Shown here one piece after another: positions 10,884 through 39,488 of a DNA stretch of 50,499 nt. Position 1 is the stretch's first letter. Every line of letters starts with the position of its first letter. Origin of the DNA: an uncultured Alphaproteobacteria bacterium (lineage in GTDB: Bacteria > Pseudomonadota > Alphaproteobacteria > Rs-D84); contig CALXML010000008.1 of NCBI GenBank assembly GCA_944389465.1, forward strand, positions 1 to 50,499, given 5' to 3'. The notes beneath the pieces were generated by a model, which made no database searches, had not been told where the DNA came from, and saw only the letters and a list, made by a program, of their open reading frames with translations. Both the position numbers and the translations under genes were made by a program.

Positions 10884-10907
10884 CCATATAAAATTACAAA
10901 AATAATA

Positions 10908-11060
10908 TTGACGTAAAAGTATGATATAAGGTAAAATACAGCATATAAACAAATGCCGAAAATAAACCACCGATTAATATCGGTGTTTTTATTTTTGAAA
11001 AAATCCCAGATTTCTGCATTTTTTTGTTCCCCCATTTCGCCGAAATAAATCGGTGGTTTA
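10908..11060 (+). promoter_or_regulatory. Leader X1: promoter, terminator hairpin and competing helix
   Basis: First copy of repeat family X. The promoter is TTGACG (10908-10913), an 18-nt spacer, TAAAAT (10932-10937). The RNA would carry a terminator hairpin CACCGAT (10968-10974) / ATCGGTG (10979-10985) followed by a T run. A longer alternative helix TAAACCACCGATT (10963-10975) / AATCGGTGGTTTA (11048-11060) would disrupt it. A 31-codon open frame, 10953-11048, starts MPKINHRL. It is nearly identical to the copy at 24622-24802. This is the layout of a transcription attenuator; the signal it senses is unknown. Confidence 0.7.
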
Positions 11061-11108
11061 ATTCTTGCCACGACACTGTCATTTAACGCAAGGGCTGATA
11101 ATATTACT

Positions 11109-12038: not shown

Positions 12039-12318
12039 TTGTATTTGATTTTTTACTGATATATAATAAATGGTGTCAGCAGGTGTTCTGCTTGATGGGG
12101 TGTGAGAACCCGTTCACAAGCGTCGAAATAGATACTTATGGCGCAAGTAATGGCGCCGTTTTAAATATTACGACGAAAAATAAATCTCCTGATTTACGTC
12201 AGGAGGGCATGCGAATATATTGAATAAGCAGCACAATTCTTGTGATTGTTCTCAACCTCCTGACCACCAATTAAACATCGGTGGTTTTTTGTTTGTACAA
12301 AATCAGGAGATTGAAATT
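12039..12318 (+). promoter_or_regulatory. Leader Y-A: structured RNA with terminator, copy A
   Basis: Promoter TTGTAT (12039-12044), N17, TATAAT (12062-12067). Helices visible: P1 TCAGCA (12076-12081) / TGCTTGA (12089-12095); long-range GAGAAC (12104-12109) / GTTCTC (12248-12253); CGTCG (12121-12125) / CGACG (12171-12175); GGCGC / GCGCC within it. GTCAGGAGG (12198-12206) can pair either with the preceding CTCCTGA or with CCTCCTGAC (12256-12264). The terminator is CCACC (12264-12268) / GGTGG (12280-12284) with six T. ATCAGGAGATT (12302-12312), which contains the ribosome site of the next gene, is exactly complementary to 12183-12193. See the findings for compensatory changes between copies. 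Confidence 0.75.
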
Positions 12319-13002
12319 ATGCGAGCCTATTTTTACATTGTACCAATAATCGCCTTATGGGCAAAAAGCGCAATAGCTGTAGATTATTACTACGGATACT
12401 CTTGTCAAACAACGTGCGATTGTTGTCAAGTAATGATGCAAAATTTTGAACACTTTGGCAAAGTGACAAGTGAATTAGATGGAGATACAGTACTTGCGAA
12501 TTACGCAACTCAGTACCCTATACCAAATTCGCGAACGATTTTTCAGGAAATACGCTATTCACATGATTCGTATGCCTTGGCAAGAGCTTGGTTATATGGT
12601 AATAGCGACTTAACAACAAAAGAGCTATGCGATTGGGGAAGTGATGGTTTAATATGCGATGCAGGGTGCGTAGATAATGCATACAATCCGATAATATGTC
12701 CATATACATGGACTAAAAAAAGTACAAGTGTGGAACAAGCAACTATAAAAGACTCTAAATGTAAATGTGATGACGCTTACGCACAAAATGCACGAACTAT
12801 TTATAGATGCGCAGCTGGTTATTACGGGAACCCTGCAAGCGGTTCTTGTTCTAAATGTACTTCCCCAGGCACAACAGATCCATTCAATGAAGCGTATACT
12901 AAATCAATAAGTATTACATCTTGCTACATACCGTCAGGAACTTCTTTTTCTGACACAAAAGGCATCGGGACATACACAAACGACTGTTATTATAGTAACT
13001 AA
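12319..13002 (+). CDS. Secreted Cys-rich protein behind leader Y-A
   Basis: A 227-aa protein of unknown function. The ATG at 12319 has an AGGAG site 9 nt upstream and opens a signal peptide (MRAYFYIVPIIALWA ... AIA). The mature part begins with a Cys cluster (CQTTCDCC) and has CAAGYYGNPASGSCSKC in its last third. It ends in the shared C-terminal motif ITSCYIPSGT ... DCYYSN. A longer frame from 12220 would run through the leader and is rejected. Codon choice differs from neighbours: several AGCT tetramers, rare elsewhere in the window, cluster here, which may mean recent acquisition. Confidence 0.8.
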   Translation: MRAYFYIVPIIALWAKSAIAVDYYYGYSCQTTCDCCQVMMQNFEHFGKVTSELDGDTVLANYATQYPIPNSRTIFQEIRYSHDSYALARAWLYGNSDLTTKELCDWGSDGLICDAGCVDNAYNPIICPYTWTKKSTSVEQATIKDSKCKCDDAYAQNARTIYRCAAGYYGNPASGSCSKCTSPGTTDPFNEAYTKSISITSCYIPSGTSFSDTKGIGTYTNDCYYSN

Positions 13003-16304: not shown

Positions 16305-16450
16305 TTGACACACCCATGAAATTAAAGTAAAATAAAATTAAATAAATGCCGAAAATAAACCACCGATTAATGTCGGTGTTTTTATTTTAGAAAAAATCCC
16401 AGATTTCTGCATTTTTTTATTCCCCCATTTTGCCGAAATAAATCGGTCAT
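16305..16450 (+). promoter_or_regulatory. Leader X2: promoter and terminator hairpin, family X
   Basis: Promoter TTGACA (16305-16310), N17, TAAAAT (16328-16333), with a perfect -35. The body from ATGCCGAAAATAAACC onward follows X1 and X3 closely. It keeps the terminator hairpin ACCGATT/GTCGGT with a T-rich tail and the conserved stretch from TCCCAGATTTCTGC to CCGAAATAAATCGG. The downstream complementary arm is shortened here (AATCGGT only). The small ORF ends early, after 14 codons, so peptide coding is not conserved. Confidence 0.65.
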
Positions 16451-16479
16451 TTTTTCTTTTAAGCCAAGGGGACAAAAAT

Positions 16480-23683: not shown

Positions 23684-23958
23684 TTGTTCAATCTCCTGTT
23701 TTTGTTTTTCGTAATGAAAAACCACCAAAAAATTGGTGGTCAGGAGGTTGATGACAATTACTGGAATTGTGTTGCGTATTTAATATTTCGCAACCCTCCT
23801 GACCGAAATCAGGAGTTGTTATTTATCGTCGCAATAATAAAACCAGCGCAAATGCGCGCCACATTATTTATTCCGACGCCAGTACACGGGTCATCACACC
23901 CCATCAATGGAACACCCATTGACATAATTATGTTATCGCGCACAGCAAAACAATGCAA
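23684..23958 (-). promoter_or_regulatory. Leader Y-C: structured RNA copy C
   Basis: Minus-strand promoter TTGCAT (23958-23953), N17, TAACAT (23935-23930). P1 reads TCAATG/CATTGA. The long-range helix reads TGATGAC (complement of 23890-23896) with GTCATCA (complement of 23749-23755), a full exchange of bases relative to copies A, D and E with pairing kept. The CGTCGgAATAA/TTATTgCGACG helix is the longest of the set. The terminator is CCACCAA/TTGGTGG followed by T. CAGGAG of the ribosome site (complement of 23693-23698) can pair with CTCCTG in the leader. Confidence 0.75.
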
Positions 23959-24621: not shown

Positions 24622-24802
24622 ACAATCCCCCATTATTTCATTACGCAAATAAACCACCGATTTATTTCGGCAAAATGGGGGAACAAAAAAATGCAGAAAT
24701 CTGGGATTTTTTCAAAAATAAAAACACCGACATTAATCGGTGGTTTATTTTCGGCATTTGTTTATATGCTGTATTTTACCTTATATCATACTTTTACGTC
24801 AA
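24622..24802 (-). promoter_or_regulatory. Leader X3: promoter and attenuator-like hairpins, family X
   Basis: Almost identical to X1 but on the other strand. Promoter TTGACG (24802-24797), 18-nt spacer, TAAAAT (24778-24773). It has the terminator hairpin CACCGATT/GTCGGTG with a T-rich tail and the competing helix TAAACCACCGATT/AATCGGTGGTTTA. The small ORF 24757-24662 (MPKINHRL, 31 codons) is not in frame with the secreted gene. It lies back to back with leader Y-D, and the two promoters face away from each other. Confidence 0.7.
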
Positions 24803-24858
24803 TATTATTTTTTTCGCACAACGTTCGCACGTTATCATTTCAGGCAAATATTAAGCCC

Positions 24859-25120
24859 TTGCATTAATAAATTTAACACGATATTATAACAATTGTCAGT
24901 GGGTGTTTCACTGATGGGGTGTCGAAACCTCTATACCAGCGTCGGAATAAACATTGGCGCGGTTTGCGCTGTTTTTATTAAGACGAAAAACAAACTCCTG
25001 ACCTTGGTCAGGAGGGTCACGAATATTAAATAAGTGACACAATTCTGGTAATTGTTTCGAACCTCCTGACCACCAACAAATTTGGTGGTTTTCTTATTCA
25101 GAAAAAACAGGAGTTTGAAA
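24859..25120 (+). promoter_or_regulatory. Leader Y-D: structured RNA copy D
   Basis: Promoter TTGCAT (24859-24864), N17, TATTAT (24882-24887). P1 reads TCAGTG/CACTGA. Long-range helix TCGAAAC (24922-24928) / GTTTCGA (25054-25060). Hairpin CTCCTGACC/GGTCAGGAG (24995-25014), whose 3' arm GGTCAGGAGG (25006-25015) is also complementary to CCTCCTGACC (25062-25071). Terminator CCACCAA (25070-25076) / TTGGTGG (25082-25088). The ribosome site CAGGAGTTTG (25108-25117) is exactly complementary to CAAACTCCTG (24991-25000). Two of the window's rare TCGA sites are the two arms of the long-range helix. Confidence 0.75.
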
Positions 25121-39131: not shown

Positions 39132-39488
39132 TTATTCACAAAAACCATTGGCATACATTTGTTCGCCATCAATTACCGGATTTTTAACCAATACCCTGTA
39201 CCCAATTGTATCCGGCCCACATTCATTTGGAACTATATTAACATAAATATTTTCTGTATCTTGTAACATTTCATCCGACGGTGCAATTGATAAAAACATA
39301 GAGTTTGCAACCCCATCACGCTTTTGCAGCAATTCCGCACTGGCAGGACAACGAACTATGACTTCGCCTGAATTATCAGACGTCACAGCAACCTGTTCGC
39401 AAACCTGTCCCATAACAGTAAAATTTTCCGCGCCATTTGCCACACCGATAAAACAAGTTCCTAATAAACAAAACAGATATTTTTTCAT
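39132..39488 (-). CDS. Small secreted protein behind leader Y-E
   Basis: A 118-aa exported protein of unknown function. The signal peptide MKKYLFCLLGTCFIGVANG ends before AENFTV. The mature part has four cysteines (VCEQVAV, VRCPAS, NECGPD, GFCE) and predicted beta strands, without the GYY/CxxC repeats of the other secreted proteins. The ribosome site AAGGAAGGG is 4-5 nt from the ATG. It is the gene downstream of the most diverged Y leader. Confidence 0.75.
   Translation of the reverse strand: MKKYLFCLLGTCFIGVANGAENFTVMGQVCEQVAVTSDNSGEVIVRCPASAELLQKRDGVANSMFLSIAPSDEMLQDTENIYVNIVPNECGPDTIGYRVLVKNPVIDGEQMYANGFCE

Follow-up and report, generated by a model that had tools for sequence, protein, structure and literature searches.

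Self-matching leader RNAs related to sRNA-Xcc1 as candidate attenuators of surface-protein and regulator genes in an uncultured Alphaproteobacteria bacterium

Several genes for small secreted proteins in the window, by which the whole analysed stretch of 50,499 nucleotides is meant, are preceded by a structured leader RNA with an intrinsic terminator. A first-pass annotation of this DNA proposed that such leaders sequester the ribosome-binding site (RBS) of their gene through a complementary arm that changed together with it, thereby linking transcription termination to ribosome access. This raises the question of which pairing the leaders are built around, and whether the Shine-Dalgarno (SD) region or another part of the transcript is its partner. 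As detailed below, dozens of surface-protein and regulator genes carry this leader, and an individual barcode in each copy probably decides on termination before the gene is reached.

Distribution and anatomy of the leader family

Five copies of the leader are located in the window and about 34 across its 0.95 Mb genome. Using a covariance model built from 26 leaders of this genome, the family was found in all 34 same-genus relatives searched (1 to 48 copies apiece) as well as outside the genus, in other families of the same order. Class-wide sampling recovered it in 18 of 276 genera (22 of 385 genomes), and a closed chromosome of Enterousia, a genus placed in the order Rs-D84 (PMC12306168), carries 25 copies at E<=1e-3, all but one of which reach E<=1e-14. 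HTH domains are encoded by 8 of the 31 genes downstream of own-genome leaders, while most of the others specify small Cys-rich proteins with N-termini that, judged by eye, look like signal peptides. Single leader-borne genes of other genomes match the OMP beta-barrel, surface antigen and PagL families.

The general layout comprises, from 5' to 3', a promoter, hairpin P0, a two-part seqA, an optional hairpin P2, arm a, arm b, hairpins P4 and P5, seqB, arm c and finally terminator, SD and gene. In 30 of 32 leaders from the window's genome, a hexamer resembling a -10 element occurs at constant spacing, around -30 from a GGGG motif, and the conserved elements include the P4 loop as well as GGGGTGT/AACC motifs. 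The parts of copy A and the positions of the other window copies are as follows:

12062..12067, + strand: copy A, promoter -10 hexamer TATAAT, at fixed spacing to the GGGG motif
12075..12096, + strand: copy A, hairpin P0 at the expected transcript start; stem retained, with altered sequence, in all relatives inspected
12103..12109, + strand: copy A, seqA part 1, TGAGAAC; partner 12248-12254 in a 7-bp helix
12114..12120, + strand: copy A, seqA part 2, TCACAAG; partner is the P5 loop (12239-12245); copy-specific and included in the self/non-self test
12183..12193, + strand: copy A, arm a, AATCTCCTGAT; partner b, possibly the SD
12198..12206, + strand: copy A, arm b, GTCAGGAGG; partner a or c, by covariation
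12207..12232, + strand: copy A, hairpin P4 with conserved loop GAATATATTGAATAA; kept throughout, with stem pairing at 84% and compensatory changes
12239..12254, + strand: copy A, seqB, made up of the P5 loop and the 3' strand of helix P1; complement of seqA
12256..12265, + strand: copy A, arm c, CCTCCTGACC; partner b, overlapping the 5' arm of the terminator; best predicted SD partner
12263..12290, + strand: copy A, intrinsic terminator ACCACC..GGTGGT with T-run, recognised from sequence; favoured at the decision point
12302..12312, + strand: copy A, Shine-Dalgarno region ATCAGGAGATT, complementary to arm a
12319..13002, + strand: copy A, gene for a secreted Cys-rich protein of 227 aa
17286..17510, - strand: copy B, leader and terminator with no ORF on its strand
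23687..23924, - strand: copy C, leader; gene for a secreted protein of 133 aa
24881..25120, + strand: copy D, leader; gene for a secreted protein of 140 aa
39541..39676, - strand: copy E, leader absent from the first-pass annotation; gene at 39132-39488 for a secreted protein of 118 aa

Copy B, which has no gene downstream on its own strand, may represent an independent RNA or else a degenerate copy.

Alternative folds and a copy-specific barcode

The two folds described in the first-pass annotation, a local hairpin of a with b and, beside the terminator, a pairing of b with c instead, are genuine and strongly covarying (for a:b, z=-14 on permutation across 118 leaders, in a test that controls shared descent only partly, as do all the leader permutations given here). 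The proposal that they are mutually exclusive folds adjoining a terminator is supported. The b:c helix is 92% paired with double (compensatory) changes in 8 of its 10 pairs, and none of 500 shuffles was as good. It forms the outer helix around two hairpins in set order (92, 84 and 82% of cells paired; double changes in 18 of 20 pairs) and overlaps the 5' arm of the terminator by 4 nt on average. The leaders fall into two main types, CTCCTGA and CTCCAAC, between which arms a, b and c were all switched jointly.

The dominant feature of these leaders was overlooked in the first-pass annotation. It consists of a hypervariable, self-matching long-range pairing between seqA and seqB, which vary between copies and are matched within each copy. 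Across the window's genome, self pairs reach -15.3 kcal/mol versus -6.7 kcal/mol for non-self pairs (z=-19), and a self pair is beaten by less than 1% of non-self pairs. Two further independent sets gave z=-30 (genus) and z=-19.5 (other genera). In 24 of 26 aligned copies from the window's genome, the 7-bp helix formed by seqA part 1 is unbroken, and compensatory changes in it are numerous.

Predicted energetics connect this barcode to the terminator. At the decision point, the terminator state is ahead of b:c by 10.1 kcal/mol; this advantage falls to 2.3 kcal/mol with seqA blocked, to 1.0 with arm a blocked and to -2.0 with both blocked (N=102; the fold energies leave aside pseudoknots and co-transcriptional kinetics). 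The energies with and without seqA predict an OFF state locked by the seqA:seqB helix. Only one own-genome copy, L009 (G000:C12:10337-10500, - strand), lacks a bias towards the terminator fold; its 5' half, seqA, is replaced, another TATA-like box lies upstream and the fold is balanced at -0.3.

Relationship to sRNA-Xcc1 and likeness to phage immunity RNAs

The leaders are related to sRNA-Xcc1 (RF02221), which has been reported from Xanthomonas and Xylella as an integron- or plasmid-borne trans-acting sRNA with no role assigned, and which is located upstream of symE in Xanthomonas, where no mechanism was given (PMC12444791). The window copies reach no Rfam gathering score, RF02221 included, and yield chance-level matches only at gathering and relaxed thresholds; the RF02221 model matches leader L193 of a relative above its gathering score (56.2 vs 53), and two loci in G120, a genome of the same genus, are common to RF02221 and the leader model R1. 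In the opposite direction, model R3, whose training set included no RF02221 locus, recovers 8 of 30 such loci in register (E 2e-10 to 6e-4, the E-values of R1 and R3 being rough). A further locus in the window's genome (G000:C1:142356-142446, + strand) scores 38.6 bits with RF02221 and is missed by R1; it may be a diverged copy or a nearer sRNA-Xcc1 relative.

Both groups share the 3' half from b to c, the order of helices and the conserved AATA-rich hairpin. Read by eye, the RF02221 loci also have the same 5' half with seqA, often with an a-like arm. This upstream half, previously unrecognised, carries a T-run terminator and is accompanied by a downstream RBS target (loci L316-L345), with z=-8.8 for the upstream seqA and z=-4.8 for the RBS-overlapping downstream seqC. 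The differences concern these last elements: a T-run terminator directly after seqA and a third target overlapping the RBS are found at RF02221 loci and are both missing in the window's genus, whose leaders place the terminator after c, serve host surface proteins and occur in many copies. For sRNA-Xcc1 itself, the comparison offers a testable function and a full anatomy, in which it makes up the 3' half of a leader that addresses itself and has its second target over the RBS of the next gene.

The same order of elements is seen in phage P1 (annotated a1/b1, C4, a2/b2) and phage P4, where GGGCGTGAGAACCCG..TTCACAGGCG corresponds to GGGGTGTGAGAACCCG..TTCACAAGCG of copy A. The C4 RNA of phages P1 and P7 (RF01695, with a1/b1 as RF03163, and a2/b2) and the CI RNA of phage P4 (seqA/seqB/seqC) share with the leaders the succession of promoter, first target, hairpin, antisense RNA with matching loop and flank, and gene, as well as self-recognition in two parts; the trait of C4 and P4-CI RNAs that was tested, an upstream two-part target complementary to the antisense loop and its flank, is present in the leaders (z=-19). 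They differ in that the window copies have no covariance-model match, that the genus has no RBS target and that the leaders do not serve phage immunity. Models RF01695, RF03163 and RF01394 gave no significant match to the leaders, and blastn against a phage collection gave no match. R3 likewise found no significant match at C4 of phages P1 and P4, and the link of the leaders to C4 and P4 is therefore one of layout only. Among open-licence papers, no link between sRNA-Xcc1 and C4 or phage P4 was found.

The c4 RNA stops translation around the ant RBS (PMC12197685). The first-pass annotation overlooked that RBS occlusion at the related sRNA-Xcc1, P4 and P1 loci is brought about by seqB acting on a separate target, which was lost in the window's genus. 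This second target at the downstream RBS is absent there, with a downstream:seqB z of -0.6 in the window's genome and -0.4 in the genus, as opposed to -4.8 at RF02221 loci, and an RBS target of the P4/P1 type was rejected on these grounds.

IsrK of Salmonella Gifsy-1 (RF01394), a structural homologue of phage P4 seqA (PMC4825925), resembles the leaders in combining a short terminated RNA with a read-through mRNA and in its alternative folds; it differs in acting on the following ORF by activation, and one window leader is weakly and non-significantly similar to it (18 bits). The RF01394 model matches the 5' half of phage P4. Searches with the isrK and c4-a1b1 models beside RF02221 loci found neither. 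The isrK model gives matches at E<=0.1 in 8 of 14 control genomes as well, so that weak isrK matches mean little. Genome G546 (6.7 Mb, same phylum) has about 40 c4-a1b1 and 29 isrK matches, apparently a further expansion of C4-type elements.

A proposed switch and its alternatives

We favour, at a probability of roughly 0.6, the reading that the leaders belong to the sRNA-Xcc1 superfamily, act in cis as attenuators, work like the self-targeting immunity RNAs of phage P4 (CI) and P1 (c4) and were adopted for host surface-protein and regulator genes. The transcript would begin with the copy-specific two-part seqA, and its exact complement seqB, in a hairpin loop and 3' flank, would be made later. 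With seqA and seqB paired, b would be held by a, c would stay free and the terminator would form, leaving the gene OFF. If seqA were otherwise occupied, most plausibly by a matching 3'-half RNA of the same copy, b would become free for c, and b:c pairing would break the 5' arm of the terminator, so that transcription could go on and the gene would be ON. Release of the OFF state would thus occur through a matching RNA in trans. In the read-through mRNA, c and sometimes a could additionally mask the SD.

How far RBS pairing is part of this switch depends on the complementarity from which the first-pass annotation started. In copy A, ATCAGGAGATT is the exact complement of 12183-12193, and the match runs to 13 nt, a length reached by 0 of 2000 dinucleotide shuffles; in copy D, CAGGAGTTTG (25108-25117) exactly complements 24991-25000 over 10 nt (p=0.0085). 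The 6-nt CAGGAG/CTCCTG core with a bulge described for copy C is present and no better than chance (p=0.64). A CAGGAG SD occurs in 23 of 44 CTCCTG-type leaders versus 1 of 60 of the CTCCAAC type (type II), and in 0 of 40 other window genes, the start codons having been picked by a simple score so that some SD assignments may be wrong; a within-type a:f permutation gave p=0.012. These observations speak for arm a as a dedicated anti-SD arm, with a:SD pairing as the selected output that ties termination to ribosome access. We nevertheless regard this as quite improbable. Over the 26 leaders with CAGG[A/G]G beside a matching arm, co-change of the flanks is not significant (p=0.06), RBS flanks starting with A facing 3 matched and 7 mismatched arm-a flanks, and the earlier statement that both partners changed together does not hold in general. 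In type II leaders the SD did not follow the change of the arm, and predicted folds of full-length transcripts place the SD on c (55%) much more than on a (9%). Moreover, SD and leader travel as one cassette, and shared descent therefore accounts for the association between CAGGAG and leader type. SD/arm-a covariation as the main signal was rejected on account of the type II leaders, the folding of the SD with c and the flank test. The potential for RBS sequestration is borne out, while arm a as its matched and selected partner is not supported, and sequestration in cis may occur as a secondary effect.

Two further explanations start from other properties of the family. The conserved loop, the GGGGTGT/AACC motifs and the multi-gene regulon with a terminator as expression platform would suit a small-molecule riboswitch, in which a metabolite bound to the P4 loop and its flanking motifs sets a:b versus b:c. 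This appears unlikely, since the longest helix is hypervariable among paralogues yet copy-matched, which an aptamer does not need, since RF02221 loci, which have the anatomy of an antisense RNA, show the conserved loop in register, and since no Rfam riboswitch matched the window leaders. Up to 48 copies per genome, the gene-less copy B and the joint movement of leader and SD might instead recall a spreading repeat or cassette devoid of a regulatory role and retained merely for its promoter and RBS. Neutral repeats would, however, lose both helices and matching, whereas compensatory changes are found in three helices (0 of 500 shuffles as good) and self-matching is maintained across genera, which makes the repeat explanation very improbable.

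If the leaders are attenuators of the proposed kind, a broader and more tentative suggestion can be made, namely that a phage-immunity-type RNA was turned by a reduced-genome gut lineage into 25-48 parallel orthogonal switches, each answering solely to its own 3'-half RNA, by which surface proteins and regulators might be switched individually, perhaps bistably, by RNA alone. Immunity-type RNAs would then have been multiplied into a genome-wide, protein-free set of orthogonal switches for surface proteins in bacteria stripped of most regulators.

Separately from the leaders, the window contains an unrelated dispersed repeat in three copies (10898-11063, 16339-16455 and 24647-24812), two pairs of which are 98% and 95% complementary and one of which overlaps a gene end.
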